DNA from: Prauserella halophila
GTDB lineage: Bacteria; Actinomycetota; Actinomycetes; Mycobacteriales; Pseudonocardiaceae
Reading direction: 5' to 3'
Assembly (NCBI RefSeq): GCF_024171895.1
Contig: NZ_JAMTCQ010000011.1
Coordinates: 124,001-188,000 of the forward strand
DNA length: 64,000 nt
Below, one piece after another: positions 8,016-54,791 of the stretch. The notes under the pieces are model-generated. The model saw only the letters and a program-made list of their open reading frames with translations. It made no database searches and was not told the DNA's origin. The translations under genes were made by a program, and so were the position numbers. Position 1 is the first letter of the stretch. The number at the start of each line of letters is the position of its first letter.

Positions 8016-8053
8016 GGTGTGCGGGTGTGCGGGTGTGCGCTCGCCCGCACACC
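8016..8053. repeat. Triple GGTGTGCG repeat with inverted complement
   Basis: An 8-bp unit GGTGTGCG occurs three times in tandem from 8016 (8016, 8024, 8032) and is followed by CCCGCACACC at 8044-8053. That sequence can pair with either of the first two copies extended by GG. It lies in the divergent promoter region between the exonuclease and pepE. Its role is unknown. Confidence 0.5.
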
Positions 8054-8087
8054 ACCCCGCGCGGGGGCGCTCGGTATTGTCGGGATC

Positions 8088-9709: not shown

Positions 9710-9721
9710 CGGCCCGCGGGC

Positions 9722-10801: not shown

Positions 10802-10959
10802 CGCTGCGATTCTACGGTCGATGGCGTTGCGTCCGGATACGGCGTGATGCCGAAGCGGTCTCGGTCGCCTCGTCGCCGGTGAGCCCGGAACCGCCGGGGT
10901 GGCCGGACACGACGCAGCCCGCGAGGATCACCTCCGCGCGGAGCACCGGGTGCGGCGGG

Positions 10960-11892
10960 TCAGCGCACGGCCGAACGCGAGTCGCTGCTGTGGGTTTCGA
11001 GATCACGTACGAGCGCGCGGGTGTGCGGGTCGGCGGTGAGGTAGGCGTCCGCGAGGACGTTGACCACTCCACGGAGTAACGCCCAGGGGCGCCAGCTGCC
11101 GGGAGCCACATCGGCACCGGCTCGGCGAGCGATCGCGCGGTCCAGGACGGCCGCCGCCTGGTCCGGGCTGATGCGGGTGCGGAGCGGAGCGGGCAGCCGG
11201 TCCTGCAACGCCTGTCCGAACGGGTGGTCGTCGAGAGTTGCGCGCGCCAGCGCCGTGTCGACGAAGCCGAAGTACACGATCCCGGCGGTGGCGCCGTGTC
11301 CGGCGAGTTCGAGTCGCAGCGCGCGTCCGAGCTGTTCCACGGCGGCTTTGCTGACCATGTAGGCGGCACCACCCGGGCCGGGCGTGAACGCCGCGCACGA
11401 GGAGAGCACGACGATGTGCCCGCGGCGGGCGATGACCTCGCCCGCCGCGGCCTGGATCGTGTTGAGGGTCCCGGTGACGTTGACCTCGACGACGCGGTCG
11501 AACGCAGCGGGCTCGACCTGGCGCAGAGTGGCGGGCGGAGGAGTGATGCCGGCTCCTGCCACGACGACGTCGACGCCCCCGGTGCGCTGGGCGAGCTCCC
11601 GTACCGCGGCGTGGACCGCAGGCCGGTCACCGACGTCGGCCTGCGCGGTGACCACGCGTTGTCCGCCCAGGGCATCCACGGCTGCGGCGAGCCCGTCGGG
11701 GTTGACGTCGACGAGCGCTACCGTCGCGCCGCGAGCGTGCAGGCGCCGGGCCAACGCGAAACCGATGCCGTCGGCACCGCCGGTGATCAGCACGACTTTC
11801 CCTGCGACGTCGAGCGCCGCCCTGCGGACCGGTAGGGGCACACCGAGATCCCGGATCGCGGTGAGCAGTGTGGACGGTGTGCGTATGGGCAT
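10960..11892 (-). CDS. Short-chain dehydrogenase/reductase (end of oxidative operon)
   Basis: A 310-residue SDR. The NAD(P)-binding motif TGGADGIG lies near residues 37-44, with Asn-Ala replaced by VAGAG near residue 110. The catalytic Ser and YMVSK motif follow near residue 190. It is the last gene of the minus-strand operon starting at 16074, 99 bp downstream of the SRPBCC gene, with its own ribosome-binding site (GGAAGGATCG). In this context it most likely oxidises a secondary alcohol to the ketone used by the Baeyer-Villiger enzyme or the reverse; that role is inference. Confidence 0.85.
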   Translation of the reverse strand: MPIRTPSTLLTAIRDLGVPLPVRRAALDVAGKVVLITGGADGIGFALARRLHARGATVALVDVNPDGLAAAVDALGGQRVVTAQADVGDRPAVHAAVRELAQRTGGVDVVVAGAGITPPPATLRQVEPAAFDRVVEVNVTGTLNTIQAAAGEVIARRGHIVVLSSCAAFTPGPGGAAYMVSKAAVEQLGRALRLELAGHGATAGIVYFGFVDTALARATLDDHPFGQALQDRLPAPLRTRISPDQAAAVLDRAIARRAGADVAPGSWRPWALLRGVVNVLADAYLTADPHTRALVRDLETHSSDSRSAVR

Positions 11893-11991
11893 CGGCTCGA
11901 TCCTTCCGCGATGTGAGCCTCAACGAAGTGAAGGGGCCGGCATCCAGCCGGTTCTCCCGGACTCGGTGCCGGACAGTCGGGTGACGGGCGA

Positions 11992-12540
11992 TCACCGACG
12001 GGGCCGGCCCGGGCCACGCGCCGGAGCGTGCTTGCCCACCTCCCGAGTCCACTCGCCGGTCACCCACAGCAGCACGGGACGGATCGGTGCGAGCAGGGGC
12101 ATCAGCATGCGCCGCGGCTCCAGTGCGAACGTCCAGACGAGCCGAGTGCCGTCCGAGTGCGGGCACAGCGTGATGTCCTCGGCGAAGCGGTGCAGGCCGG
12201 GACGGTTCGCGGCCTCGGCACTGAAACTCATCCGCACGCCCTCGTCCCACCGGTAGAAGCGCTCCCGCAACGCGGCTGCGCCGTGGGCGACGGTGACAGT
12301 GCGGGTCGTGCCCACGCCGAACGGACGTGGTGAGGTCCATACCGCACCGGTGATCCCGCGTGCCCAGGTCGCCGGTGCGTTGTCCGCTGTCAACACGCGC
12401 CACACCTGTTCGGTGTCTGCGCGCAGATCCACGGTGTGTCTGAACCGGAATCGCGCTGTCGAGAGGAACGTGTCGTCGCTCGGTGCGAGGGAGTGCCATC
12501 GTGGCATGTCCGCTGCCTTTCGCCGTTCCGTCGTGTTCAC
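11992..12540 (-). CDS. SRPBCC/START-like lipid-binding family protein
   Basis: A 182-residue protein with the polyketide-cyclase/SRPBCC fold, which forms a hydrophobic ligand-binding cavity. It begins the domain with RHTVDLRADTEQVWRVLTAD and continues through a curved sheet to a long C-terminal helix (LLAPIRPVLLWVTGEWTREV). The GTG at 12540 overlaps the stop of the reductase gene by 4 bp (GTGA), which supports this start over the internal ATG at 12507. In the operon it may bind or present a hydrophobic substrate to the oxygenases. Confidence 0.75.
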   Translation of the reverse strand: MNTTERRKAADMPRWHSLAPSDDTFLSTARFRFRHTVDLRADTEQVWRVLTADNAPATWARGITGAVWTSPRPFGVGTTRTVTVAHGAAALRERFYRWDEGVRMSFSAEAANRPGLHRFAEDITLCPHSDGTRLVWTFALEPRRMLMPLLAPIRPVLLWVTGEWTREVGKHAPARGPGRPRR

Positions 12541-13610
12541 AGATCGAGGACGAGCCGGTCGTGGGCCGCACGCGATACGCAGATCAGCATGGTGTCGGCC
12601 CGTTCGTCGTCGGACAGGATCCGGTCACGGTGATCCACGCTCCCGGCCAGTACCCGGGTCCGGCAGGTGCCACAGAAGCCTTGCCGGCAGGAGTAGGGGA
12701 CACCGGGCACCTCACGGCGGATCGCGGCGAGCGCGGACTCGTCGTCGGCCACGTCGACGCTGGTGCCGCTGCGTTCCAGCCGGGCCTCGAACGGACGGCC
12801 GTCTATGACGGGCGGAGGCGCGAAACGTTCCATGTGGACGGACGCGCTCGGATTGATCTCACCGAGCCCGCGGCGGGCGCTGTCCATCAGGCCGGGCGGT
12901 CCGCACAGGTAGGCGGCCGCTCCGGCGTCGGCGGAGGCGAGGACGGATTCGAGGGATGCCGTGCCGTGTTCGTCGTCGGCGTGCACCTCTACGGTGCCGG
13001 TGTCGAGACCGGCGAGGTCGTCGAGGAAGGGCATGGTGGTACGTGACCGCCCGAGGTACAGCAGTCGCCAGGGGACTCCCCGTCGGTGACACGTTTTCAC
13101 CATCGGCAGGATCGGTGTGATGCCGATGCCGCCCGCGACGAACAGGTACGACGGTGCGGACACGAGGCGCAACGCGTTCCGCGGGCCGCGGACGGTGATC
13201 TCGTCTCCCACAGCCAGTGTCTCGTGGATCTCGCGCGACCCGCCACCGCCGTCGTCGATACGGCGTACCGCGATGCGGTAGGTGTGGCGGTCGTGCGGAT
13301 CGCCGCACAGCGAGTACTGCCGTTGCCGACCGGAGGCGAGTGTCACGTCGATGTGTGCTCCGGGCTGCCATCGGGCGAGTTCTTCGCCGTCGGCCGCGGC
13401 GAGGGTCACGTGCACGACATCCGCTGCCACCGGTTGCAGTTCCGTTACGGCGCACCGGCGCTCGAAGCCGGTGCGGCGTACCGGGTCGGGCCGGGACAAC
13501 AACGGTGCGACACGACTGCCGGCGAAGAGGTACCGGTAGGCGCCGGTGAGTGTGCCCAATACCCGCAGCGACGGGGAGGGGATGAACGAGGCCCTGCCGG
13601 CGGTGGTCAT
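12537..13610 (-). CDS. FNR-type flavin reductase with C-terminal 2Fe-2S ferredoxin
   Basis: A 357-residue electron-transfer protein: an FAD-binding beta-barrel (RQYSLCGDP), an NAD(P)H-binding domain (VAGGIGITPILPM) and a plant-type 2Fe-2S ferredoxin domain with CRQGFCGTC near residue 308 and the fourth cysteine in MLICVSRA. Such proteins pass electrons from NAD(P)H to Rieske or di-iron oxygenases. Its ATG overlaps the stop of the PF10118 gene by 4 bp and its stop overlaps the SRPBCC start by 4 bp, so it is tightly coupled to both. I infer that it reduces the neighbouring di-iron-like protein. Confidence 0.88.
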   Translation of the reverse strand: MTTAGRASFIPSPSLRVLGTLTGAYRYLFAGSRVAPLLSRPDPVRRTGFERRCAVTELQPVAADVVHVTLAAADGEELARWQPGAHIDVTLASGRQRQYSLCGDPHDRHTYRIAVRRIDDGGGGSREIHETLAVGDEITVRGPRNALRLVSAPSYLFVAGGIGITPILPMVKTCHRRGVPWRLLYLGRSRTTMPFLDDLAGLDTGTVEVHADDEHGTASLESVLASADAGAAAYLCGPPGLMDSARRGLGEINPSASVHMERFAPPPVIDGRPFEARLERSGTSVDVADDESALAAIRREVPGVPYSCRQGFCGTCRTRVLAGSVDHRDRILSDDERADTMLICVSRAAHDRLVLDL

Positions 13611-35185: not shown

Positions 35186-35929
35186 TCAGTCGCGGTCCCG
35201 GCCTCTGGCGTCGAGTGCGGCTGCTTCCTCCGGGGTCGGCGCGGTGCCGCCGAGGTGCGCGGGCAGCCACCAGCGGTCGTCGTCGCCCGCGGGCTGGTCC
35301 GGGTAGTCGGCCTGCAGCGTGTCCAGGATCGACTGCAGCCGCGTACGGAGGTCACCGCTGAGCGCGTCCGGATCGTCGTCCGGTGCCGGGTGCAACGGCT
35401 CCCCTGCATGGATGTGGATCGGCACGTGCCGTTTCGTGAGCTCCTTCGGACGCCCTTTCGTCCAGAGCCGCTGAGTGCCCCACAGCGCCATCGGCACGAC
35501 CGGCACCCCCGCATCGGCGGCCATGCGGATCGCGCCGGATTTGAGCGGTTTGATCGTGAACGAGCGGCTGATCGTCGCTTCCGGGAACACCCCGACGACC
35601 TCGCCCGAGCACAGCCGGTCGACCGCCTCGTCGTAGGACGCCTTCCCCGCCCCGCGGTCCACGGAGATGTGGTGCATTCCGCGCATGAGCGGACCGGCGA
35701 TCCGGTTGTCGAAGATCTCCTTCTTGGCCATGAACCGCACCAGCCGCTTCGCAGGCTGCGCGCCGAGGCCGCAGAAGATGAAGTCCAGGTAGCCGATGTG
35801 ATTGCAGGCGATCACCGCACCGCCGGTGGGCGGGACGTGTTCGGTGCCCGTCACCCGCAGCCGGTTGTCGAGCACGCGGAACATGGTCTTGGCCGCCAGT
35901 ACGACGGGCGGGTACACGATCTCTGCCAC
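35186..35929 (-). CDS. 1-acyl-sn-glycerol-3-phosphate acyltransferase (PlsC-like)
   Basis: A 247-residue lysophospholipid acyltransferase. Motif I is NHIGYLD (variant of HX4D with the His in CNHIGYLDF), motif III is GVFPEATIS and motif IV VPVVPMALWG. It transfers an acyl chain to lysophosphatidate or a related acceptor at the membrane. An N-terminal hydrophobic segment is short. The C-terminal 40 residues are hydrophilic and variable. It lies on the same strand downstream of the sugar kinase at 35981 but is functionally unrelated. Confidence 0.85.
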   Translation of the reverse strand: MAEIVYPPVVLAAKTMFRVLDNRLRVTGTEHVPPTGGAVIACNHIGYLDFIFCGLGAQPAKRLVRFMAKKEIFDNRIAGPLMRGMHHISVDRGAGKASYDEAVDRLCSGEVVGVFPEATISRSFTIKPLKSGAIRMAADAGVPVVPMALWGTQRLWTKGRPKELTKRHVPIHIHAGEPLHPAPDDDPDALSGDLRTRLQSILDTLQADYPDQPAGDDDRWWLPAHLGGTAPTPEEAAALDARGRDRD

Positions 35930-35980
35930 ACGGCCAGGCTACGCACCCGTAGGTTGCCTGGCTCGTGGCTGGGTCCCCGG

Positions 35981-37435
35981 TCACAGCCGCCAGAGCTGCC
36001 GCGCCGACGCCAGTGACGCCTGGTAGTCGGCGTAGCCGTCCTTGTAGAACTCGGCCGCCGACGGGTCGAACTGCACGGTGCGGGAACTGGCGGCCCAGCG
36101 TTCCGCGTCGTACGGCTCGCCCAGCGCTTCGGCCGCCACGAGGACGGCTCCGCGCGCGCCCACTCCCGGGTCGCTCGGAATCACGATCGGCCTGCCCAGC
36201 ACGTCGGCGAAGATCTGCGTCCACTCCGCGGAGCGAACGCCGCCTCCACACGCGTACAACGTCCCGGACAGGCCTGCGGCGTCGAAGCAGTGCCGGGCGG
36301 CGTAGGCGATCGACTCGCACAGCGCGCGCACGACGTCGGCCGGTCCGTGTTCGAGGCTCAGCCCGGAGAACTGGGCGCGCGCCGCCGCGTCCACGAACGG
36401 TGCCCGCTCCCCCGACGCCGACAGGAACGGTAGCGCACGGACCCCGCCCGCGCCGGGACCGCTCTCGGTGAGCAGTTCGCCGATCTTCCCGACCTCGATG
36501 CCGAACATCCGGCACGCCCAGTCGATGCTCGCGGTGCCGACCATGGCCGGCATGGCTCGCAGGTACTCCCCCTCGTCGGGCGTCGACAGGAACATGCCCG
36601 CCGGTTCGCCGTCCGGGTCGAACGCGGCGTCGCCGGTGAGCACCTGGCACGCGAGCGTCGTGCCGGCCGTGAGGATGCCGTCTCCCGGTTTGCGCACGCC
36701 CGCGCCGATGGCGCTGGCCGGCAGGTCGAACGGTCCGGCCGTCACCGGCAGCCCGGCGGGGAGTCCGAGCAGTTCGGCGCCGTGGGCGTCGAGGGCGAAG
36801 ACGGTTCTCGGGGCCGCCGGTTCGGCGAGCAGGTCCCGGCGGTGGGTGAGGCCGCACGCGGCGAGGGCGGCGTCGTCGTAGCGGCGGGTCGCCGGGTCGA
36901 GGAACGGCAGCGACGCGTCGGACACGTCGACGGTGATCTCGCCGGTCAGTCGTTGCAGCACGGCGTCGACGCAGTAGCCGGCGACGGCCGCACGGTCGAG
37001 CGTCTCGGGTTCGTGAGTGTCCAGATACGACAGGACGGGGCCTGCGCAGCCGGGGAACATGCCCGACCCGGTGCGGCGGAACACTTCCGAGGCCACGCCG
37101 CCGGCCTGCCAGTCGGCCAGCAGGGCGTTGGCCCTGCCGTCCAACCAGGACACGGCAGGACGTACGCCGCGGCCGTGTTCGTCGCGCAGCCACACGCCGT
37201 CGCCCTGCCCGGTGAGCGCCACGGCGTCGACCGGCCCGTCCAGCGCGGCCGTGACCTCACGTACCACTGTCGCGACGGTGCCGACGACCTGATCGAGGTC
37301 CTGTTCGACGTGGCCGCCGGGCCGTTGGTCGAGTTCGGACGGGGTGGACGCCTCGGCGACGGCCAGCCCGTCGTCGTCGAACACGACGGCCTTGGTCAGC
37401 GACGTTCCGATGTCGACGCCGATGATGCGGGTCAT
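35981..37435 (-). CDS. FGGY family carbohydrate kinase 1
   Basis: A 484-residue two-domain sugar kinase. The phosphate-binding motif GVDIGTSLTKAVVFD is at the N-terminus; the catalytic Asp lies in TAGPFDLPASAIG, and ACGGGVRS binds adenosine in domain II. FGGY kinases act on xylulose, ribulose, glycerol, erythritol, autoinducer-2 and others; the substrate cannot be decided by eye. Its ATG overlaps the stop of the 2-hydroxyacid dehydrogenase by 4 bp. It is the last gene of the five-gene minus arm of the carbohydrate regulon. Confidence 0.9.
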   Translation of the reverse strand: MTRIIGVDIGTSLTKAVVFDDDGLAVAEASTPSELDQRPGGHVEQDLDQVVGTVATVVREVTAALDGPVDAVALTGQGDGVWLRDEHGRGVRPAVSWLDGRANALLADWQAGGVASEVFRRTGSGMFPGCAGPVLSYLDTHEPETLDRAAVAGYCVDAVLQRLTGEITVDVSDASLPFLDPATRRYDDAALAACGLTHRRDLLAEPAAPRTVFALDAHGAELLGLPAGLPVTAGPFDLPASAIGAGVRKPGDGILTAGTTLACQVLTGDAAFDPDGEPAGMFLSTPDEGEYLRAMPAMVGTASIDWACRMFGIEVGKIGELLTESGPGAGGVRALPFLSASGERAPFVDAAARAQFSGLSLEHGPADVVRALCESIAYAARHCFDAAGLSGTLYACGGGVRSAEWTQIFADVLGRPIVIPSDPGVGARGAVLVAAEALGEPYDAERWAASSRTVQFDPSAAEFYKDGYADYQASLASARQLWRL

Positions 37436-38466
37436 CGCAGTACTGCCGGGTTGGCGACGTTGAGCAGCTGCTCGCCGCGCACGTAGCGGCCCACCTCCGC
37501 CGCGACGATCTCGGCGGCCCGCTCGGCGGTCTGTTTGCTGCATCCGGCCAGGTGCGGGGTCGCGATCACGTTCGGCAGGTTCCGCAGTTCCCAGTCGGCG
37601 GGCGGCGGTTCCTCGTCGTAGACGTCGAGTGCGAGCGCGCCGAGTTTGCCGCTGCGCAGCAGCCCGGGCAGCGGGGCGTAGTCCAGCAGGCCGCCGCGGG
37701 CGGAGTTGACCAGCACCGCCCCGTCGGGCAGCAGCGCGAGCTTCTCGGCGTCGATCAGGTGCCGGGTGTCCTCGGTGAGGCGGGCATGGAGGCTCACGAC
37801 CGGGCTGCGCCGGAGCAGATCGTCGAGGTCGACGAGCTCGGCGCCGTCGGCGGCGATCCGGTCGGGATCGGCGAACGGATCGGCGACCAGCACGCGGGAA
37901 CCGAAGGCCGCGAGTACCTTGGCCACCCGTGCGCCGATCGCGCCGTAGCCGACCAGGCCGACCGTCGTGCCGTCGAGTTCGAGGCCCGCGTTGGGATAGG
38001 CGTAGTAGTCCCCGCGCCACTGCCCGCCGAGCAGTTCCGCGGATGCCGTCGGAATGCGGCGCATGGCGGCCAGGATGAGCCCGAGCGCGAACTCGGCCGC
38101 GGCCGCCGCGTTGCGGCCCGGTGCGAACGTGACCGCGACCCCGGCTTCGGTGGCCGCGTCCAGGTCCACGTTCACCGGTCCGCCGCGCGAGACGGACACC
38201 AGCTTCAGCTGGGGTGCCGCGGCGAACACCTGTTTCGTGAACGGGGCCATCTGTGTGACCGCGACGTCGGCGTCGCCGAGCGCGTCGATCACCTGTTGCT
38301 CGGTGCCGCTGGCTTCCTGCACCCCGCCGACCGGGCCGAACGGTTCGACCGGCCAGGGCAGCGACAACCGCGACAGCTCGGCGTCGGGGGCCTGGCCGCG
38401 CACCGCGTCGGCGAGCAGCTCGGTCCTGACGAACTCGTCTCCTGCAGCGAGTATCCGCAACGTCAT
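37432..38466 (-). CDS. D-isomer-specific 2-hydroxyacid dehydrogenase
   Basis: A 344-residue NAD(P)-dependent oxidoreductase of the phosphoglycerate dehydrogenase type. The Rossmann motif is GLVGYGAIG near residue 172; the catalytic Arg is in NSARGG, the Glu in DVYDEEP and the His in TPHLAG. There is no ACT domain, so it is not a typical biosynthetic SerA. It could oxidise or reduce a sugar acid or 2-oxo acid formed in the pathway. It follows the RpiB-type gene by 37 bp and overlaps the kinase start by 4 bp. ATG after AGAGGA. Confidence 0.88.
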   Translation of the reverse strand: MTLRILAAGDEFVRTELLADAVRGQAPDAELSRLSLPWPVEPFGPVGGVQEASGTEQQVIDALGDADVAVTQMAPFTKQVFAAAPQLKLVSVSRGGPVNVDLDAATEAGVAVTFAPGRNAAAAAEFALGLILAAMRRIPTASAELLGGQWRGDYYAYPNAGLELDGTTVGLVGYGAIGARVAKVLAAFGSRVLVADPFADPDRIAADGAELVDLDDLLRRSPVVSLHARLTEDTRHLIDAEKLALLPDGAVLVNSARGGLLDYAPLPGLLRSGKLGALALDVYDEEPPPADWELRNLPNVIATPHLAGCSKQTAERAAEIVAAEVGRYVRGEQLLNVANPAVLR

Positions 38467-38503
38467 TGTTCCTCTCGGTGCTGGGTTCCCGGTGCCGCCG
38501 GAC

Positions 38504-38968
38504 TCAGGTCGCGGCGCCCGCTTGTTCGTAGTCGGTGATGTGGGCGACCTTGGCGGCGCTGGCCGAGGCCGGGTCGAAGGCGTAGCCGAGCCATTCGCCG
38601 ACGATCCGTTTGGCGAGTTCGGGGCCGATCACGCGGGCGCCGAACGTGATGACCTGGCAGTTGTTGGACTTGACGGATCGTTCGGCGGAGTAGGAGTCGT
38701 GGGCCACGGTGGCACGGACTCCGGGGACCTTGTTCGCCGAGATGGCCACGCCGATCCCGGTGCCGCAGACCAGTACGCCGCGGTCGGCCTCGCCTGCGGC
38801 GATCTTCTCGGCGGCGGCCAGTCCGAGCACGGGATAGGCGCGGTGGTCGTCGGGTCCGTCCACCCCGACGTCGATCACCTCGGTCACCCGCTCGTCGGCG
38901 GACAGCAGGTTCCGCACCTCGTTCTTCAGTCCCACGCCGGCGTCATCGGCCGCGACGACGACTCGCAT
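38504..38968 (-). CDS. RpiB/LacAB-type sugar-phosphate isomerase
   Basis: A 154-residue isomerase of the RpiB family, which interconverts aldose and ketose phosphates; members include ribose-5-P isomerase B and erythrulose-phosphate isomerases (EryI/DerI). The catalytic Cys lies in VLVCGTGIGVAISANK and the ring-opening region has SNNCQVITFGARV. Its start shares one base with the stop of the DhaKL gene (TGATG), so the kinase and isomerase are translationally coupled. RpiB paired with a DhaK-type kinase is the arrangement known for D-erythrulose catabolism in M. smegmatis. Confidence 0.88.
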   Translation of the reverse strand: MRVVVAADDAGVGLKNEVRNLLSADERVTEVIDVGVDGPDDHRAYPVLGLAAAEKIAAGEADRGVLVCGTGIGVAISANKVPGVRATVAHDSYSAERSVKSNNCQVITFGARVIGPELAKRIVGEWLGYAFDPASASAAKVAHITDYEQAGAAT

Positions 38969-40665
38969 CAGTTCTGCCCTCCCAGTACGTCGCCGACGGC
39001 GGTGACGAGGAGCGCGAACGACGTCGCTCCCGGGTCGGCGTGTCCTTTGCTGCGTTCTGCCAAGCGTGCTGCGCGCCCTTTGCCGGGCACCAGGTCCGCG
39101 GTCTCCTGTGCCGCGACGGTGGCTGCCTGGGCGGCCTTGCGCCAGGCGTCGGCGATGTCGGCGCCGGTGTCGGAGCGTCCTGCCGATCCGTGTACCGCAG
39201 CTCGCAGGGTGGTGCGGAACGGTTCGATCGCATCGAGCATGGTCTTGTCCCCCGGCCGGGCCTTGCCCAGCGTGGTGAACGCCGCCGCGGCGTTGTCGAC
39301 GGCGTCGGCCAGGGTCTCGGCGGTGATCTCGCCGCGCAGCCCCGCGCCGGTTTCGGCCAGCAGTACCCCGTACAGCGCGCCCGAGGCCCCGCCCGCCGCG
39401 TCGGCGAACGCCGTCCCCGCGGCGAGCAGTTGCTCGGCCGGGCCGGTGCAGCGGCGTGCCGCCGTGACGGCGGCACGCATGCCGCGGGTCATGCCGAGTC
39501 CGTGATCGCCGTCGGCGGCCACGGCGTCGAGCCTGCCGAGTTCGTCCTCGTTCGCTTCGATCAGCCGGAGCGCGGCGGTGAGGGCTCGGTCGACGGTGCT
39601 CTCCCCGGCGTGCTGTGGCGTGGCCAGCGTGTCGTCGACCGTGACCGAGGGCCGCACCGGCGCGGCGGGCCGGCCGTCGCTGCGGTATCCGGGTGACGAG
39701 CACGGCGCCGCGTACAGCGCGGCCAGTTCGTCGTCGAGGACCATGGCCGACAGTGACACGCCCGCCATGTCGAGGGAGGTGACGAACTCGCCGACCTCGA
39801 TGTGCACCGGGTCCAGACCTGCTGCCGTGAGGCGTTCGTGGATGCGCTTGTAGGCCACGAACATCTCCTCGTACTTGGTGCGGCCGAGTCCGTTGAGCAG
39901 GACGGCGACGCGGCCGTCCCCGCTCGGCAGCTCCGGAAGGAGACCGTCGACGAGTTCGTCGGCCAGCTCGGTGGCGGCGAGTCTGCCGACGGTGCGCACC
40001 CCGGGCTCGCCGTGGATGCCCAGGCCGAGTTCCATGTCCGTGTCGGAGACGGTGAACAGCGGCTCGGCGGCGCCGGGCAGCGTGCACCCGCCGAAGGCGG
40101 CGCCGAACGTGCGGGTGCGGGCGTTGGCCTTCACGGCTGCGGCGTGCACCCCGTCGAGGTCGTCACCGCGTTCGGCTGCGGCGCCTGCCACCTTGAAGAC
40201 GAAGAAGTCGCCTGCCACGCCGCGGCGGCTCGCGGGGTCCTCGGAGGGGCCGCTGGCGACGTCGTCGGTGACGAGGATGGTGCGGCTGTCGATGCCTTCG
40301 GCGGCCAGCCGTCGTGCCGCGAGTCCGAAGTGGAGCACGTCGCCCTGGTAGTTGCCGTAGCCGAACAGGACGCCCGCGCCGCCGTCGGCTTCCCGTGCGG
40401 TGCGGTGGACCTGCTCGGCGCTGGGGCTCGTGAATACGTCGCCCACGACGGCACCGTCGGCGAGTCCGTGACCGACCAGGCCGGCGAACGCAGGGTAATG
40501 GCCGCAGCCGCCGCCGATCACCACGGCGACCTTGCCCCGTTTCGGGACGTCGGTGGCGACGACGCCGTAGGCGTCCGGAACCTTGCGCACCTCACGTCCG
40601 TACGCGGTGACGAAGCCGTCGACCCAGTCGCGCTTGAAGGTCTCGGCGGTTCCCAGCACGGTCAC
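38968..40665 (-). CDS. Single-chain ATP-dependent dihydroxyacetone/ketose kinase (DhaK-DhaL)
   Basis: A 565-residue fused kinase. The DhaK domain (1 to about 330) has VIGGGCGHYPAFAGLVG and the His that binds the ketone covalently, His218 in GLGIHGEPG. The DhaL nucleotide domain (about 375-565) has AADGDHGLGMTRGM. This architecture serves dihydroxyacetone kinases and also the D- and L-erythrulose kinases of actinobacteria. Coupled with an RpiB-type isomerase, a four-carbon ketose is a plausible substrate, but this is inference. GTG at 40665 overlaps the HAD stop by 4 bp. Confidence 0.9.
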   Translation of the reverse strand: MTVLGTAETFKRDWVDGFVTAYGREVRKVPDAYGVVATDVPKRGKVAVVIGGGCGHYPAFAGLVGHGLADGAVVGDVFTSPSAEQVHRTAREADGGAGVLFGYGNYQGDVLHFGLAARRLAAEGIDSRTILVTDDVASGPSEDPASRRGVAGDFFVFKVAGAAAERGDDLDGVHAAAVKANARTRTFGAAFGGCTLPGAAEPLFTVSDTDMELGLGIHGEPGVRTVGRLAATELADELVDGLLPELPSGDGRVAVLLNGLGRTKYEEMFVAYKRIHERLTAAGLDPVHIEVGEFVTSLDMAGVSLSAMVLDDELAALYAAPCSSPGYRSDGRPAAPVRPSVTVDDTLATPQHAGESTVDRALTAALRLIEANEDELGRLDAVAADGDHGLGMTRGMRAAVTAARRCTGPAEQLLAAGTAFADAAGGASGALYGVLLAETGAGLRGEITAETLADAVDNAAAAFTTLGKARPGDKTMLDAIEPFRTTLRAAVHGSAGRSDTGADIADAWRKAAQAATVAAQETADLVPGKGRAARLAERSKGHADPGATSFALLVTAVGDVLGGQN

Positions 40666-41339
40666 GATCGCACCAACTCTCCGGTGAGGTAGGCGAGCAG
40701 GGTTCGGCGGACGTCGTCGTTGTCGGCCGCGACGGCGGCGGCCAGGTCGAGTGCGTCCGGCTTCGGTGGGTAGGTCGGGTTGGGCAGTGCGACGACGGTG
40801 AGTCCCGCGGCCGCGGCCGCCCGGATCCCGTTGCTCGAGTCCTCCACGCCGAGGCAGGCCGCGGGCGGTACGTCCAGCCGGGCGGCGGCCTCGGTGTAGA
40901 CGTCGGGGCTCGGTTTACCCCTCGGTACCTCGGCGCTCGACACGGTGGCGCTGAACTCGCCGGTCAGGCCGTGGGTGGCCAGGACGGCGTCGATCACCCG
41001 GCGCGCCGCCGAGGAGGCCAGGGCGATGGGCGCACGGGCGCCGACACCGCGCACCATGGTGTCCGCGCCGCCCAACAGCGGCGCCTCGCCCGCCTCGATC
41101 GAGGCGATCATGCCGTCCACGACCGCGTCCTCGACCTGCTGCACCGTCTCGGCCGTACCGCTGCGGTCGGCGAGATACGCGGCCCATTCGGGTGCGCTCA
41201 TCCCCTGCACCGTCGCGGTGTCCTCGGCAGTCCATGTCACACCGTGTCGCGCGGCGTAGGCGACCCAGTTCTCTTCCCAGAGGTGTTCACTCTCGACCAG
41301 TACTCCGTCGAGGTCGAACACGACTGCGGCGAACGTCAT
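40662..41339 (-). CDS. HAD superfamily phosphatase/phosphomutase-like
   Basis: A 225-residue haloacid-dehalogenase family protein. Motif I is VFDLDGVLVESE, motif II LASSAARR, motif III the Lys of RGKPSPDVY and motif IV GVEDSSNG. The helical cap inserted after motif I places it with beta-phosphoglucomutase-like and sugar-phosphate phosphatases. It is the first gene of the minus arm and may remove toxic dead-end sugar phosphates. GAAAGGGG precedes the ATG; a palindromic operator lies 25 bp upstream. Confidence 0.87.
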   Translation of the reverse strand: MTFAAVVFDLDGVLVESEHLWEENWVAYAARHGVTWTAEDTATVQGMSAPEWAAYLADRSGTAETVQQVEDAVVDGMIASIEAGEAPLLGGADTMVRGVGARAPIALASSAARRVIDAVLATHGLTGEFSATVSSAEVPRGKPSPDVYTEAAARLDVPPAACLGVEDSSNGIRAAAAAGLTVVALPNPTYPPKPDALDLAAAVAADNDDVRRTLLAYLTGELVRS

Positions 41340-41363
41340 TCACAGCCCCTTTCACGTCCTGGA

Positions 41364-41376
41364 TGTTAAATTAACA
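41364..41376. promoter_or_regulatory. 13-bp palindrome, putative DeoR-family operator O1
   Basis: TGTTAAATTAACA is a perfect palindrome about its central A. It covers the -10 of the minus-strand promoter and lies 33 bp before the histidine phosphatase start on the plus strand. A second site of the same design, TGTGAAGTTCACA, is at 42890-42902; together they give TGTKAANTTMACA. The DeoR-type gene is the obvious candidate ligand. Confidence 0.65.
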
Positions 41377-41396
41377 CCAGAGTCGCGATTTGTCAC
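41368..41396 (-). promoter_or_regulatory. SigA-like promoter of the minus arm
   Basis: On the minus strand GTGACA (complement of 41391-41396, five of six matches to TTGACA), a 17-bp spacer and TAATTT (complement of 41368-41373) read towards the HAD gene. The operator O1 covers the -10, so bound repressor would block polymerase. Confidence 0.65.
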
Positions 41397-41408
41397 CGGA
41401 GGTGCTGC

Positions 41409-42020
41409 ATGGGAACTCGACTCCTACTGGTCCGGCACGGGGAAACCACGTGGCACGCCGAGAACCGGTACGCGGGCAGCAGCGACGTGGCACTGACCGA
41501 ACGCGGCGCCGCGCAGGCCGAAACGCTCGCCCGGCGCATCGCCGGCGCAGCCGAACCTCCCGTGGCGATCCATTCCTCCCCACTGAGCAGGGCGATGGCG
41601 ACGGCCGAACCGGTCGGCTCCGCCCTGGGTCTGCCGGTCGAGGTCGAACCGGAGCTGCGGGAGGCGCACTTCGGCCTGGCCGAAGGGCGCACCCTCGCCG
41701 AACTGCCCGCCTCCGTGGTGGAGCGGTTCCGCGCCGATCCGATCGCCGGTTCCTTCCCGGACGCCGAGCCGCCCGCGTCGGTCGCCGACCGCGCGGTGGC
41801 CGCTCTGGTCGGTATCGCGGAACGAGCCGAGGACACAGGAGGCCGTGCCCTGGTGGTCGCACACAACACCCTGCTGCGGCTGGCGCTGTGCCGGCTGCTC
41901 GGCATTCCACTGTCGACCTACCGCCGCGTGCTGCCGAAGCTGGCGAACGGCGCGATCACCGAGGTCGGCATCGAGGCAGGACACGCCAGCCTGTACCGGC
42001 TCAACGCGCCCGCGGAATGA
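41409..42020 (+). CDS. Histidine phosphatase (phosphoglycerate mutase-like)
   Basis: A 203-residue histidine phosphatase family enzyme. The catalytic motif LLLVRHGETTWHAENR is at the start; the second His is in VVAHNTLLRL. The SPLSRAMATAEP segment is family-typical. It dephosphorylates small phosphate esters through a phosphohistidine. GGAGG at 41398-41402 precedes the ATG. It is one base upstream of the DeoR gene and probably co-transcribed, so it may be a housekeeping phosphatase for pathway intermediates. Confidence 0.88.
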   Translation: MGTRLLLVRHGETTWHAENRYAGSSDVALTERGAAQAETLARRIAGAAEPPVAIHSSPLSRAMATAEPVGSALGLPVEVEPELREAHFGLAEGRTLAELPASVVERFRADPIAGSFPDAEPPASVADRAVAALVGIAERAEDTGGRALVVAHNTLLRLALCRLLGIPLSTYRRVLPKLANGAITEVGIEAGHASLYRLNAPAE

Positions 42021-42021
42021 G

Positions 42022-42822
42022 ATGCTGGCCCGCGTGACCGAGAAGAGCGACAAGAGTGCGGGGCAGCGCGCCGGCAGACAGCAGCGCATCACCGACTACG
42101 TGGTGAACAACGGTTCGGCATCGGCGGCGGAACTGGCCGAACTGACCGGCGTGAGCGTGATGACGGTCCACCGTGACCTCGACGAGCTCGCGCGCCGCGG
42201 TCTGCTGCGCAAGTTCCGCGGCGGCGTGTCCGCCCAGCCGTCGACGGTGTTCGAGAGCAACTCCGAGTACCGCCTCAACGCCAACGTCGAGGCCAAGGCC
42301 GCGATCGCCCGGCAGGCACTGACCTGTGTGGAACCGGGGATGTCGATCCTGCTGGACGACTCCACGAGCGCCCTCGCACTGGCCAAGCTGCTCGGCGAGG
42401 TCACCCCGCTGACCGTCGCGACCAACTACCTCCGGGCGATCGACGTGCTCAAGGACGTCGAGGACGTGCGCCTGATCGCGATCGGCGGCGACTACTCGCC
42501 CACGCACGACGCCTTCCTCGGCATGCCGTGCCTGGAGGCGATCGAACGGCTCACCGTGGACACGACGTTCGTGTCCACGTCGGCGATGAACACCGAGCTG
42601 ACGTTCCACCAGGAGCCCGAGATCGTCATGGTCAAGCGGGCCATGCTGCAGAGCGCGCAGAACGGCGTGCTGCTGATGGACTCCAGCAAGATGTCGCGCA
42701 CCGCGCTGCACCGGCTCGCTCCCGTCGCCGACTATCACCGGCTGATCGTCGATGCGGGCACGCCGGAGGCGACGGTGGAGGAGCTGCGCAACCGCACAGA
42801 GGTGGACGTGGCGCCGCTCTGA
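42022..42822 (+). CDS. DeoR family transcriptional regulator of the sugar regulon
   Basis: A 266-residue repressor. The N-terminal DeoR helix-turn-helix is RQQRITDYVVNNGSASAAEL followed by VSVMTVHRDLDELARRG. The C-terminal DeoRC domain binds phosphorylated sugars (LLDDSTSALALAKLL and the MDSSKMSR segment are family-typical). The family usually represses sugar catabolic genes and is relieved by a pathway sugar phosphate. It lies between the two arms it probably controls. ATG at 42022 is used; GTG at 42034 is possible. Confidence 0.9.
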   Translation: MLARVTEKSDKSAGQRAGRQQRITDYVVNNGSASAAELAELTGVSVMTVHRDLDELARRGLLRKFRGGVSAQPSTVFESNSEYRLNANVEAKAAIARQALTCVEPGMSILLDDSTSALALAKLLGEVTPLTVATNYLRAIDVLKDVEDVRLIAIGGDYSPTHDAFLGMPCLEAIERLTVDTTFVSTSAMNTELTFHQEPEIVMVKRAMLQSAQNGVLLMDSSKMSRTALHRLAPVADYHRLIVDAGTPEATVEELRNRTEVDVAPL

Positions 42823-42889
42823 CGGCACCGCGCAACTGACAGCACCGCGGGTCCGATGGTTTCGCGGAAACCTAAAATCACATCTTGTT

Positions 42890-42902
42890 TGTGAAGTTCA
42901 CA
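42890..42902. promoter_or_regulatory. 13-bp palindrome, putative DeoR-family operator O2
   Basis: TGTGAAGTTCACA is a perfect palindrome about its central G, 38 bp before the transporter ATG. A -10-like TAAAAT is at 42873-42878, just upstream, so binding here would lie at the start of the transcript. It shares the half-site design of O1 (41364-41376). An extra TCACA at 42879-42883 forms a second, looser dyad with it. Confidence 0.65.
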
Positions 42903-42940
42903 TGGGTGATGATGCTGCGAGCGACACCCATGGAGGCAAG

Positions 42941-44317
42941 ATGACTGCGCAGACAACACCGACGTTGTCCGGAGCCGGCGGAGGGTTCCGCGGGTTACTC
43001 GAGAAGTGGGGCCTTCCCGCGCCGTTGCTGTTCGGCTACGTGGGCCTGCTCCTGTTCATGATCGGCGACGGCGTCGAATCCGGGTTCATCGCGCCGTTCA
43101 TGGCCGATCACGGCGCCGGCACCGACATCCGCGCGTCGTACGTGATCACCGTGTACGGCGTCGCCGTGATGCTCGCGTCGTGGCTTTCCGGCGCCCTGTC
43201 CGAACTGTGGGGCCCGCGCCGGGTCATGATGCTCGGCCTCGCCATCTGGCTGGTGTTCGACGTCCTGTTCCTCGCCATCGCCGTGAGTGGTGAGAGCTAC
43301 GCACTGATGATGGTGTTCTACGGCATTCGCGGGCTCGGCTACCCGATGTTCGCGTTCGGGTTCCTGGTGTGGATCACGGCGGTCGCGCCGATCGCACGCC
43401 TGGGAGCCGCCGTCGGGTGGTTCTACTTCGCCTTCACCGGCGGCCTGCCGACCCTGGGCTCGCTCGTCGCGAGCTTCACCAACCCGATCTTCGGCCACTA
43501 CGGCACGCTGTGGCTCTCCATCGGCATCCTCGGACTCGGCGGCCTGGTCTGCCTGCTCGGGGTGCGGGAGCGCACGGGCTTCCAGCGACTGGCTCCGCCC
43601 GACGTGAAACCCGTGCAGAGTCTCGTCTCGAGCGTGTCGATCGCCTGGAAGAAACCGCAGGTCGGACTCGGCATGATCGCGCGCGTCATCAACACCGCGC
43701 CCGAGTTCGGCATGCTCGTGTTCTTCCCGACGATCTTCGCCCACCAGATCGGCTTCGGCGAGGCGCGCTGGCTGCTGCTCGTGTCGGTCATCTACGGCAC
43801 CAACATCGTGTTCAACCTGATCTTCGGCGTCGTCTCCGACAAGATCGGCTGGCGCACGACGATCTTCTGGTTCGGTGCCGTCGGCTGCGCGGTCTCGATC
43901 CTCCTGCTCTACTTCGTGCCGCTCGCCCTCGGTGCCGACTACTACTGGGTCGCGCTGCTCGTCGGTGCGCTGTACGGGGCCACGCTGGCCGGGTTCGTGC
44001 CGATCTCGGCGCTGCTGCCGTCGCTGGCACCCGAGAACAAGGGCGGTGCCATGGCGCTGCTGAACCTCGGCGCCGGCGCCGCGACCTTCGTCGGCCCGGC
44101 GATCGTGAGCCTGTTCCTCGGGCCGGCCGGAGCCGCGGGCGTGGTGATCATCTTCTCGGCGCTGTACGTGGTCGCGGCGGTCATCGTGCGGTTCCTCGAA
44201 CTCCCGGAGGCCACGGAGGAAGCGCTCGCGAAGGACGCGAACCTGCAAACCGTCACCGAGGAGACAGCGCAGGAGACTGACCAGGAAGCTGACCAGGAAG
44301 TCAGGGCGCCGCGGTGA
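42941..44317 (+). CDS. MFS transporter resembling the polyol permease family
   Basis: A 458-residue protein with about 12 membrane helices. The first helix region LFGYVGLLLFMIGDGVESGF resembles the ribitol/D-arabinitol permeases RbtT and DalT (TIGR00897-like polyol permeases). Other MFS signs are SGALSELWGPRRVMML and GVVSDKIGWRT loops. GGAGG at 42932-42936 sets the ATG. The last 30 residues are acidic and Gln/Glu-rich. It should import the substrate of the regulon. Its stop overlaps the second FGGY kinase start by 4 bp. Confidence 0.85.
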   Translation: MTAQTTPTLSGAGGGFRGLLEKWGLPAPLLFGYVGLLLFMIGDGVESGFIAPFMADHGAGTDIRASYVITVYGVAVMLASWLSGALSELWGPRRVMMLGLAIWLVFDVLFLAIAVSGESYALMMVFYGIRGLGYPMFAFGFLVWITAVAPIARLGAAVGWFYFAFTGGLPTLGSLVASFTNPIFGHYGTLWLSIGILGLGGLVCLLGVRERTGFQRLAPPDVKPVQSLVSSVSIAWKKPQVGLGMIARVINTAPEFGMLVFFPTIFAHQIGFGEARWLLLVSVIYGTNIVFNLIFGVVSDKIGWRTTIFWFGAVGCAVSILLLYFVPLALGADYYWVALLVGALYGATLAGFVPISALLPSLAPENKGGAMALLNLGAGAATFVGPAIVSLFLGPAGAAGVVIIFSALYVVAAVIVRFLELPEATEEALAKDANLQTVTEETAQETDQEADQEVRAPR

Positions 44318-45744
44318 CGGTCGTCGGCATCGACGTGGCGACCGCGGGGGTCCGTGCCTTCGCGGTCGCCGCCGACGGCACCGTTCTCGCCCGCGCCGCC
44401 ACGGACCTGCCCCACCCTGTCCGTTCGCCCGACGGGCACAGCGAGCAGGACGCCTGTAGCTGGTGGCCCGCGGTGGAGTCGGCCGTCCGGCGGGTGTGTG
44501 AGCGCCCCGAGGTGGGGCCGGTCGAGGCGGTCGCGGTGTCGGCGACGTCGGGCACGATCGTGGCGGTCGACCGCCATGGCGAACCGGCCTCGCCCGCGCT
44601 CATGTATGACGACCGGCGGGCCGCGCAGGAGAACGTCGTGGCCGCGGAGGCCGGTGCGCAGCGCTGGGCCGCGCTCGGGACGACGGTCTCCCCGACCGCC
44701 GCGCTCGGCCGGATCGCCTGGCTGCATGCGGCGTATCCCGACGCGGCGGGCGTGGTGCACACGCCCGAGTTCATCGGCGCAGCGCTCACGGGCCGGCCGG
44801 TCGCCGCGGACTGGTCGCACACGCTCAAGAGCGGTTACGACCCGGTCCGCGGCGAGTGGGCGTGGGAGGTGTTCGACGCGCTGGGCGTGCCGACGTCGTG
44901 GCTTCCCGACGTCGTGGCCCCGGCCCGCGTGCTCGGCGAGACGCCGCGGCCCGTGGCGGGACTGCCGAGGGGCTGCCCGGTGGTGGCCGGCATGACCGAC
45001 GGCTGCGCGGCACAGCTCGCCACCGGAGCGGCCGAGCCGGGCCGGTTCGTGGGCATCCTCGGGACGACGTACGTACTCAAAGGCGCTACCGAACGGCTCG
45101 TCGCCGACCCGTGGGGCGCGCTGTACAGCCATCGGCATCCGGACGGCTGGTGGCTCGCGGGCGGCGCGTCCAACACCGGAGGCGAGGGCGTGACCGGTGA
45201 TCTCGCGCGGCTCGACGCCGAGGCGGCTGCACGCGGGCCCGCCCGGGCGCTGGCCTACCCCCTGGCGCGCTCCGGCGAGCGGTTCCCGTTCCCGGCGCCG
45301 GAGGCGAGGGGATTCGTCATCGGGGATCCGGCCGACGACGTCGAACTCCACCGGGCGCGGCTCGAAGGTGTCGCGTTCCTCGAACGTCTCGCCCTCGAGC
45401 ACGTCTGCGACCTCGGTGTGGACGTGCGCGGGCCGCTGCTCGCCGCGGGCGGCGGCAGCGCCAGCACGCTGTGGACCACGATCCGCGCGACCGTGACGGG
45501 CCGGAGCATGCAGGTGCCGGCGCACGCCGAGACCGCCTATGGCGCGGCGCTGCTGGCCGCCGCCGGAACCGTGCCGGGCGGACTGTCCGAGGTGTCCGCG
45601 CGGATCGGTGCGGGTGGCACGGTCGTCGAACCCGACCCGGCGCAGCGCGACCGGCTCGAGGAGTCCTACCGGCGGTTCACCGCCGAACTGGGTGACCGGG
45701 GCTGGCTTCCGGAGGTGCCCGGCCGCGCAGGCGTTGAACGGTGA
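44314..45744 (+). CDS. FGGY family carbohydrate kinase 2 (ribulo/xylulokinase-like)
   Basis: A 476-residue sugar kinase with GIDVATAGVRAFAV at the phosphate loop, the catalytic Asp in VAGMTDGCAAQLATG, FVGILGTTYVLKG, and AAGGGSAS near residue 375. The ILGTTYVLK segment recalls the D-ribulose kinase branch that includes cyanobacterial SePSK. It is not a close copy of the FGGY kinase in the minus arm. GTG at 44314 overlaps the transporter stop (GTGA), so uptake and phosphorylation are coupled. Confidence 0.88.
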   Translation: MTVVGIDVATAGVRAFAVAADGTVLARAATDLPHPVRSPDGHSEQDACSWWPAVESAVRRVCERPEVGPVEAVAVSATSGTIVAVDRHGEPASPALMYDDRRAAQENVVAAEAGAQRWAALGTTVSPTAALGRIAWLHAAYPDAAGVVHTPEFIGAALTGRPVAADWSHTLKSGYDPVRGEWAWEVFDALGVPTSWLPDVVAPARVLGETPRPVAGLPRGCPVVAGMTDGCAAQLATGAAEPGRFVGILGTTYVLKGATERLVADPWGALYSHRHPDGWWLAGGASNTGGEGVTGDLARLDAEAAARGPARALAYPLARSGERFPFPAPEARGFVIGDPADDVELHRARLEGVAFLERLALEHVCDLGVDVRGPLLAAGGGSASTLWTTIRATVTGRSMQVPAHAETAYGAALLAAAGTVPGGLSEVSARIGAGGTVVEPDPAQRDRLEESYRRFTAELGDRGWLPEVPGRAGVER

Positions 45745-53941: not shown

Positions 53942-53954
53942 CTTGATTATCAAG
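53942..53954. promoter_or_regulatory. Putative MarR operator, copy 2
   Basis: CTTGATTATCAAG is a perfect 13-bp palindrome (CTTGAT/ATCAAG about T), 19 bp before the SDR start. Centre-to-centre distance to copy 1 is 23 bp, about two helical turns, allowing two dimers on the same DNA face. Confidence 0.65.
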
Positions 53955-53972
53955 ACATCTCTGGAGGAAGAC

Positions 53973-54791
53973 ATGACGAAGGTATGGCTGATCACCGGCG
54001 CGAGTCGCGGCCTGGGACGCGCGATCGCCCAGCGGGCGGCTCGGGCCGGTGAGACCGTCGTGGCGACCGCTCGCGATCCGCGGACGATCGCCGATCTGCC
54101 GCACCCGTTGCGGCTCGACGTGACCGACCAGGCGTCGGTGCACGATGCGGTGGCGACCGCGATCGACCTGCACGGTCACATCGACGTCCTCGTCAACAAC
54201 GCGGGACACGGGTTGGTCGGAGCCGTGGAGGAACTCGCCGACGACGAGCTGCGCGCCGTGTGGGAAACCAACGTCCTCGGCGTTCACCGGGTCACCCGCG
54301 CCGTACTCCCCCACATGCGAACCCGCGGCCGGGGGCACATCGTGCAGATGTCCTCCGTGGGCGGAGTGGTCGGCAATCCCGGACACGCGGCCTACGCGTC
54401 GTCGAAGTTCGCGCTCGAAGGCCTTTCCGAGGCGTTGGCTGGCGAAGTCGCCCCGTTCGGGATCGGTGTCACGATCGTCGAGCCAGGACCGTTCCGCACC
54501 GAGTTCGCGGGTTCGTCGATGCGCTACGCGGCCCCGATCGACGCATACGAGGCAACTCCCGCCGGAACACTGCGCGCACGATTCGCCGACCAGGACGGCC
54601 GTCAGCCCAACGACCCGGCCCGGGCGGCGGACATCCTGCTCGACGCCGTCGACTCCGCCGAACCTCCGCTCCGGCTGCCCCTGGGGCCCGAAGCCGTCGA
54701 ACGGATCGGGCAGAAGCTCGCGCGCCAGCGCGAGCAGCTGGACGTCTGGGCACCGGCCGCGCGGGACACGGCATTCGAGGCGGCCGGCTGA
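53973..54791 (+). CDS. Short-chain dehydrogenase/reductase under MarR control
   Basis: A 272-residue SDR of the classical type. The cofactor motif is TGASRGLG at residues 8-15, then NNAGHG, and the catalytic SSVGGVVG and YASSK (Tyr/Lys). The later part (IVEPGPFRTEFAGSS) resembles the SDR subfamily annotated as oxidoreductase/retinol dehydrogenase-like. GGAGG at 53963-53967 sets the ATG. Expression is probably inducible through the divergent MarR repressor; the substrate is unknown. Confidence 0.87.
   Translation: MTKVWLITGASRGLGRAIAQRAARAGETVVATARDPRTIADLPHPLRLDVTDQASVHDAVATAIDLHGHIDVLVNNAGHGLVGAVEELADDELRAVWETNVLGVHRVTRAVLPHMRTRGRGHIVQMSSVGGVVGNPGHAAYASSKFALEGLSEALAGEVAPFGIGVTIVEPGPFRTEFAGSSMRYAAPIDAYEATPAGTLRARFADQDGRQPNDPARAADILLDAVDSAEPPLRLPLGPEAVERIGQKLARQREQLDVWAPAARDTAFEAAG

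Follow-up and report, generated by a model that had tools for sequence, protein, structure and literature searches.

In the erythritol (ery) pathway, a kinase and a dehydrogenase acting on erythritol yield a ketose-1-phosphate. The erythritol/adonitol/L-arabitol locus of Sinorhizobium meliloti, the closest described system to the one considered here, was published with 17 genes, of which fucA1 is stated to be missing from Sinorhizobium fredii NGR234, and a suboperon is described that consists of lalA, rbtB and rbtC. The published account states that S. meliloti EryA acts on adonitol and L-arabitol too, and that lalA-rbtABC serve these two polyols, not erythritol (PMC3599248). Here we analyse a nine-gene cluster in a 64,000-nucleotide stretch (the window; contig NZ_JAMTCQ010000011.1, positions 124,001 to 188,000) of the 5.05-Mb genome of Prauserella halophila (GCF_024171895.1). 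The cluster is an actinobacterial relative of the Sinorhizobium locus, because phylogenetic trees join its two FGGY kinases, FGGY1 and FGGY2, with EryA and RbtB, its 2-hydroxyacid dehydrogenase (HADH) with RbtA, and its RpiB with the RpiBs of erythritol loci; it probably works like that locus with different wiring. It is not counted as a member of it, because the core steps EryB, EryC, TpiB and LalA were tested and not found. We regard it as an even call that the cluster is a phosphorylate-first tetritol and pentitol catabolic regulon of actinobacteria, and the gene set probably lets this soil actinobacterium live on sugar alcohols with four or five carbons, with phosphorylation as the opening step.

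The nine gene families named by a first-pass annotation of the window were all recovered over Pfam cut-offs, and all nine genes are open (Table 1). They form two arms that diverge from a 69-bp gap, with FGGY1, HADH, RpiB, a DhaK-DhaL fusion (DhaKL) and a HAD phosphatase in one arm, and a histidine phosphatase (HPM), a DeoR-family regulator (DeoR), an MFS permease and FGGY2 in the other. The annotation's statement that most neighbouring junctions overlap by 1-4 bp is just true: four of the seven same-strand junctions do so, and the other three are gaps of 37, 1 and ~118 bp. The permease scores 528 bits against TIGR00897 (cut-off 375, E 1e-158), and DeoR shares 44% identity with the EryR encoded at the S. 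meliloti Ak57 locus. A scan of ten proteins over 35186-45744 showed no polyol dehydrogenase by Pfam, and no EryB or class II aldolase. In the whole genome, an EryB query detected a pair of homologues at 35 and 36% identity (E up to 1e-20), and a class II aldolase query from a sister genus detected one at 34%, all outside the window.

We propose that the RbtT/DalT-type permease would import a polyol, for example ribitol, arabitol, erythritol or threitol, that the EryA-type FGGY1 would phosphorylate its end carbon, and that HADH, using NAD, would convert the polyol phosphate to a ketose-1-phosphate. Such a compound does not feed well into the pentose phosphate pathway; it can be cleaved by a ketose-1-phosphate aldolase or have its phosphate moved. 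In the latter case, a dedicated phosphatase would release the free sugar, HPM acting on the pentulose and HAD on the tetrulose phosphate, and a ketose kinase would phosphorylate its far end, FGGY2 giving D-ribulose-5-phosphate and DhaKL giving erythrulose-4-phosphate, which RpiB would convert to erythrose-4-phosphate. The pentose phosphate pathway would then take up D-ribulose-5-phosphate and erythrose-4-phosphate. A second exit may exist in sister genera, where a fuculose/ribulose-1-phosphate-aldolase-like enzyme may cleave the ketose-1-phosphate. Gene content and order, the linkage of the modules, tree placement and the conservation of the operators are shown directly, and the substrates, the direction of the steps, repression by DeoR, the HADH reaction and the removal and replacement of phosphate are inferred. 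Under this scheme every gene has a role, and it explains both the two interchangeable modules described below and the fact that one phosphatase can stand in for another.

The likeness to rhizobial polyol loci is seen in both sequence and gene order. HADH homologues (41.7-45.9% identical) lie on plasmid records of Sinorhizobium, Shinella, Gemmobacter and Paracoccus, and in the three plasmid records examined an FGGY kinase gene stands directly beside the HADH homologue in two and one gene away in the third. The polyol loci of S. meliloti Ak57 (L182) and S. fredii NGR234 (L204) have the HADH gene immediately after eryA in the gene order. Ak57 EryA, EryC and TpiB are 55, 68 and 73% identical to the proteins of the Rhizobium johnstonii ery locus, where the ery names were assigned here from gene order, the record itself naming no genes; a 512-aa Ak57 protein, whose family match had suggested GlpD, is EryB-like at 66% identity, and the GlpD reading was rejected. 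The NGR234 locus holds 16 genes, one fewer than published for S. meliloti; 14 of them match Ak57 proteins, and the other two (285 and 481 aa) lie among transporter genes. From published gene content and order, the rhizobial HADH is RbtA by elimination: the adjoining genes for an aldolase, an FGGY kinase and a HAD protein were assigned to lalA, rbtB and rbtC, ordered here as their names are, which leaves only the HADH gene. The Ak57 RbtC (HAD) gene (L182:14599-15443) is split over two reading frames, and its NGR234 counterpart is one open frame.

Compared with the Sinorhizobium locus, the cluster likewise has an EryA-type kinase beside an RbtA-type dehydrogenase, an RbtB-type kinase, RpiB and an EryR-like DeoR, together with, in sister genera, a FucA1-like aldolase. 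It differs in having no homologues of EryB, EryC, TpiB, LalA and RbtC, and where Sinorhizobium has the Mpt ABC transporter and these missing enzymes, the cluster has the MFS permease, DhaKL, HAD and HPM. The first-pass annotation had held that the gene combination matches no known pathway and that its substrate may be new. The wiring without EryB, EryC and TpiB is indeed unlike the described loci, but neither part of this view is supported: both FGGY kinases, HADH, RpiB and DeoR have homologues in the S. meliloti-type locus, and the substrate need not be new.

Other described systems share smaller parts of the cluster. The Mycobacterium smegmatis D-threitol/erythrulose route (DerK, DerI) also has a fused DhaKL kinase beside an RpiB-type isomerase, but its threitol dehydrogenase, triose-phosphate-isomerase-like isomerase and ABC transporter are absent here, and FGGY1 and HADH are extra. 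The enterobacterial ribitol/D-arabinitol operons (rbt, dal) resemble the cluster in an RbtT/DalT-family permease and a D-ribulokinase-like enzyme and differ in a ribitol or arabinitol dehydrogenase that the cluster lacks; an oxidation-first operon of this kind does not fit, as Pfam finds no polyol dehydrogenase beside the permease among the ten proteins. The oxidative D-apiose cluster of Rhizobium etli has RpiB with DhaK and DhaL, but nothing in the present cluster corresponds to its OiaX, its four-carbon acid sugar kinase or its ABC transporter. In the open-access literature, judged mostly from listings, we found no description of the gene combination, nothing on FGGY kinases with apiose and erythrulose and, from listings, no description of a ribulose-1-phosphate polyol pathway. 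A search of viral contigs gave nothing useful.

In a 46-row FGGY tree, which like the HADH and RpiB trees carries a long-branch warning, the FGGY1 clade (actinobacterial sequences and one Shinella row) is sister to the rhizobial EryA clade (96/82) and stands apart from Escherichia coli XylB, LyxK, GlpK, LsrK and FucK. FGGY1 is 35% identical to EryA and carries the motif TGQGDGVW, which aligns with GQMHG in E. coli XylB; the motif of R. johnstonii EryA is TGQGDGTW (common form TGQGDG.W). GQGDG is present in 88 of 98 FGGY1 sequences (loci L033-L132, some genomes being represented twice); six read AQLDG, one GQLDG and one GQLEG, and two have no match. The SePSK residues that bind D-ribulose have been described (PMC4880283), and by motif context in the alignment FGGY2 keeps D8, T11, S72, K163 and D221, with S222 replaced by Gly. 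Additionally, FGGY2 shares a clade (100/100) with the kinase of rhizobia that was assigned as RbtB, and its nearest solved structures are AtXK-1 and SePSK. We propose that FGGY2 may be a SePSK-type D-ribulokinase; its score with TIGR01315, a model of FGGY pentulose kinases, is 52 bits (cut-off 409). Xylulose- and glycerol-kinase readings of the FGGY enzymes were rejected by tree placement, and an AI-2 kinase reading by the separation of LsrK from both FGGY1 and FGGY2 and by scores of 88.5 and 79 bits against the LsrK model, versus 528. Membership of the kinases in a known pathway, which the first-pass annotation had named as speaking against its own proposal, applies in part, through the rhizobial homologues of a ribitol-type pathway. 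In Shinella sp. WSC3-e, a relative of FGGY1 (49% identical) has no HADH beside it; the genes nearby encode GlpD, a class II fructose-bisphosphate aldolase and subunits of a 2-oxo acid dehydrogenase, which may represent a different use of the same kinase clade.

The HADH tree comprises 28 rows, including eight other 2-hydroxyacid dehydrogenases of the source genome. It unites HADH with rhizobial RbtA (99/96), and these eight paralogues stand apart from that group, as do SerA, PdxB and GhrB. In the alignment, R94, R118 and R229 are common to HADH and RbtA and absent from SerA and GhrB, and Arg94 and Arg229 could bind phosphate. A plain phosphoglycerate dehydrogenase was rejected for HADH on the basis of tree placement, Val92 at the R75 position and residue comparison. 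HADH is assigned the oxidation of polyol phosphate because it is the only oxidoreductase identified among the recurring genes; a few loci add a short-chain dehydrogenase/reductase (SDR) or an alcohol dehydrogenase, the flanking genes being otherwise not classified systematically. This oxidation is the weakest step of the proposed pathway. As a tentative proposal with a real but minority chance of being right, HADH and RbtA may represent a new NAD-dependent polyol-phosphate dehydrogenase in the D-2-hydroxyacid dehydrogenase superfamily, marked by R94 together with R229, within a regulon that relocates phosphate (an end-phosphorylated polyol is oxidised, stripped and rephosphorylated at its other end) by means of plug-in tetritol and pentitol modules.

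The source genome also holds a second, paralogous set (L226; C1:245000-264000, cluster at locus 6858-12843). It comprises a class II aldolase, an EryD-like regulator, an RbtT/DalT-family MFS permease 38% identical to that in the window, an FGGY kinase that is the outgroup of EryA plus FGGY1, and a 2-hydroxyacid dehydrogenase that is 37% identical to RbtA and also has Arg94.

DhaKL scores 645 bits against NF011049 (cut-off 492). In the 18-row RpiB tree, the RpiB of the window groups with RpiBs of rhizobial erythritol and apiose loci at 97/96, far away from the other RpiB of the genome, and because of this grouping a tetrulose may be the substrate of DhaKL and RpiB, in keeping with the role that the first-pass annotation had given the pair.

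To survey conservation, genome contigs were scanned with an HADH alignment, which gave 200 relatives, and the best 80 loci were kept; the counts below refer to the 64 loci that are 20 kb or longer, the 16 shorter ones having been dropped, with gene presence called by tblastn at identity and coverage thresholds. The loci come from Prauserella, Amycolatopsis, Saccharomonospora, Nocardiopsis, Saccharopolyspora, Actinopolyspora, Streptomyces, Subtercola and others, and close relatives of the source genome by gene identity are Prauserella species, whose HADH is 90-97% identical. HADH, the query, is present in all 64, FGGY1 in 63, DeoR in 59, the MFS permease in 54, HAD, DhaKL and RpiB in 49 each, FGGY2 in 47, HPM in 42 and class II aldolase in 32, and FGGY1 adjoins HADH in 62; EryB, EryC, TpiB, LalA and RbtC were each found by tblastn in 0 of 64. 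The combination is not random, and the gene order is far beyond chance because it recurs in many named genera; many loci share genera, so that the counts are not independent events.

Two modules swap as blocks. HAD, DhaKL and RpiB are all present in 49 loci and all absent from 15, with HAD found in 49/49 loci that have DhaKL. FGGY2 and HPM occur together in 41 loci (41/47 of those with FGGY2), neither occurs in 16, FGGY2 alone in six and HPM alone in one. In the six loci with FGGY2 and no HPM (Actinopolyspora and relatives), a different HAD-family protein lies directly beside FGGY2. At least one module is present in 63/64 loci, the exception being Saccharomonospora sp. NB11 (L075), which at the thresholds used keeps only DeoR and HADH, and within Streptomyces both FGGY2-only and DhaKL-only forms occur. 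The class II aldolase (family by Pfam) directly follows FGGY1 in Amycolatopsis and Saccharomonospora, lies elsewhere in the cluster in Saccharopolyspora and was not found in any of five Prauserella genomes searched; the absence of EryB and class II aldolase emphasised by the first-pass annotation therefore stands for the proteins scanned in the window but does not extend, for the aldolase, to these three genera. The best-scoring models for the L038 copy are L-fuculose-phosphate aldolase (cut-off 264) and haloarchaeal ribulose-1-phosphate aldolase (cut-off 300), both below cut-off at 205 bits. Both ways of handling a ketose-1-phosphate are represented, since half of the loci encode an aldolase and every ketose kinase has a phosphatase next to it.

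In a 396-genome sample of the phylum, HADH was recovered at E ≤ 1e-85 from eight genomes, the source included. In another class of the phylum, three loci carry HADH with DeoR, FGGY2, HPM, FGGY1 and a further FGGY kinase, along with sugar ABC transporter genes (recognised by eye) and, in two of the three, class II aldolase homologues. Because they are found together in another class, FGGY2, HPM, HADH, FGGY1 and DeoR look like an old set. Actinopolyspora-type loci (L045:13297-14887) may add an SDR, which is gluconate-5-dehydrogenase- and GolD/DthD-like below the cut-offs, and a second HAD next to FGGY2. A locus from a bacterium of the same order (L052) has DhaKL, RpiB and triose-phosphate-isomerase-like and L-threonate-dehydrogenase-like genes (the latter two below cut-offs), a content that looks like another four-carbon sugar or acid pathway.

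The strict operator pattern TGTKAANTTMACA was scanned in eight whole genomes, with the reversed pattern as control. In the source genome it matches two sites only, one in the divergent promoter and one before the permease, and all strict matches in the eight genomes fall inside the cluster, with 0 for the control. Across the 64 loci, 45 strict matches in 40 loci are all intergenic at cluster promoters, flanking DeoR, MFS, FGGY2, HPM, HAD or HADH, and the control gives 0 in 1.35 Mb. In line with the two-arm, DeoR-controlled polyol/ketose regulon suggested by the first-pass annotation, the nine genes form one local regulon, in which DeoR would repress both arms through the two palindromes. Since the strict sites are confined to the cluster, no distant gene of the source genome belongs to the regulon under the strict pattern, and a missing dehydrogenase elsewhere under the same operator was rejected on the same eight genomes. 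When one mismatch is allowed, the source genome gains one site (C3:94703) and the genomes G037, G239 and G027 gain three, three and two, one of the G239 sites lying between the cluster's own DeoR and permease; the reversed control gives one match in G037 and 0 in the source genome, G239 and G027. The 20-kb stretches around three such sites (source genome, G037, G239) contain no relative of the cluster genes. In two Prauserella species, an identical one-mismatch operator-like sequence (G037 C2:396918, G239 C2:590655) lies just upstream of a 652-aa gene with a near-identical start, and no such site is listed in the source genome. In Saccharomonospora sp. NB11, a perfect operator is kept between DeoR and HADH (L075:8912-11035).

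Several observations weigh against a phosphorylate-first polyol regulon. HADH keeps Arg257, Glu286 and His305, the active-site residues of D-2-hydroxyacid dehydrogenases, and its predicted structure is an ordinary fold of that family; members of the family are not known to oxidise a polyol phosphate, so that an acid substrate is the default chemistry for HADH. Identities to the rhizobial proteins are modest (34-53%), and RbtA coexists with EryB in rhizobia, so RbtA need not replace EryB. RpiB scores over the cut-off of an actinobacterial ribose-5-phosphate isomerase model (TIGR02133, 181.3 versus 168.2 bits) and under that for D-erythrulose-4-phosphate isomerase (NF051858, 160.7 versus 240 bits). 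Neither HPM nor HAD is a clear homologue of RbtC, whose match to HAD spans 45 residues (E 0.012). Phosphate removal and replacement would cost extra ATP, and 24/64 loci have no strict operator, some of them having near matches. Finally, the E. coli kinase nearest to the EryA plus FGGY1 group is LyxK, a ketose kinase; FGGY1 could therefore act on a ketose, and an L-xylulose-kinase-like reading of it is less easily excluded than the other kinase readings.

An acid substrate for HADH would lead to a sugar-acid pathway, in which the substrate of FGGY1 is an aldonate (alternatively one that HADH has made beforehand from a 2-keto acid), HADH acts at C2 of this acid as do PdxB, SerA and ketoaldonate reductases, and FGGY2 and DhaKL handle side products. 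The complete catalytic triad, the invariant Asp196 after the second strand, which suggests NAD, and the phosphoglycerate dehydrogenases that are the nearest solved structures by sequence all fit it. We nevertheless consider it unlikely, as HADH groups with RbtA of a polyol locus rather than with SerA, GhrB or PdxB, it lacks the substrate Arg of human phosphoglycerate dehydrogenase (Val92 at the R75 position), FGGY1 stands beside EryA and the permease is of the ribitol/arabinitol family. More doubtful still is the direct import of a tetrulose, pentulose or branched ketose, as first proposed for this cluster, with phosphorylation by the kinases and a side role for HADH. LyxK as relative of FGGY1, the lack of a polyol dehydrogenase among the nine genes, the use of DhaKL and RpiB for D-erythrulose in M. 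smegmatis and the occurrence of RpiB, DhaK and DhaL in the apiose cluster speak for it, but it leaves unexplained the EryA placement of FGGY1 and the HADH-FGGY1 core, which persists where DhaKL and RpiB are missing (15/64 loci). The least probable reading considered is a set of separate small pathways under a shared regulator and permease, for D-erythrulose (DhaKL and RpiB), D-ribulose (FGGY2) and one polyol (FGGY1 and HADH), with phosphatases as safety valves against dead-end phosphates. Kinase-phosphatase blocks that come or go as units and a phosphatase beside FGGY2 that is replaceable by an unrelated one would be expected from it; against it, every ketose kinase in the loci counted is linked to a phosphatase (DhaKL to HAD, FGGY2 to HPM or, in six loci, another HAD), which suggests an obligatory phosphatase step. 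We retain the phosphorylate-first tetritol and pentitol regulon as the preferred reading.

Table 1. Features of the cluster, in window coordinates; the start of the MFS permease (~42941) was placed from its ribosome-binding site.
Feature	Coordinates	Strand	Evidence
FGGY1, proposed EryA-type polyol kinase	35981..37435	-	Pfam FGGY_N/C, tree, motif
HADH, RbtA-type D-2-hydroxyacid dehydrogenase family, proposed polyol-phosphate dehydrogenase	37432..38466	-	Pfam 2-Hacid_dh, tree
RpiB, proposed erythrulose-4-phosphate isomerase	38504..38968	-	Pfam, tree
DhaK-DhaL fusion (DhaKL), proposed tetrulose (erythrulose) kinase	38968..40665	-	Pfam Dak1+Dak2
HAD phosphatase, beta-PGM-like subfamily, DhaKL partner	40662..41339	-	Pfam
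Candidate operator TGTTAAATTAACA in the 69-bp divergent promoter	41364..41376	.	perfect palindrome
Histidine phosphatase HPM, FGGY2 partner	41409..42020	+	Pfam His_Phos_1
DeoR-family regulator, EryR-like	42022..42822	+	Pfam DeoRC/HTH_DeoR
Second candidate operator TGTGAAGTTCACA upstream of permease	42890..42902	.	palindrome copy
RbtT/DalT/CsbX-family MFS permease, proposed polyol importer	~42941..44317	+	TIGR00897
FGGY2, RbtB/SePSK-type kinase, proposed D-ribulokinase	44314..45744	+	tree, residues

The gene after FGGY1, at 35186-35929, resembles a 1-acylglycerol-3-phosphate acyltransferase, with a score under the cut-off of the model, and a gene of the same size is found at four Prauserella loci too. 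About 8 kb from the cluster, the start of an open reading frame at 53943-54791 reads, by eye, like a short-chain dehydrogenase.

All 21 strains of the actinobacterium Propionibacterium freudenreichii are stated to use erythritol and adonitol through pathways that could not be reconstructed, and according to the same report a pathway for L-arabitol had been described in no bacterium other than S. meliloti (PMC4437456). A survey of the FGGY family places EryA and D-ribulokinase exclusively in Alphaproteobacteria (PMC3245297). The regulon described here offers candidate genes for such polyol pathways in Actinobacteria, where they have been hard to find so far, and a testable reaction for RbtA, for which the accessible literature gave us no described reaction. 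It is also a clear example of interchangeable kinase-phosphatase modules.

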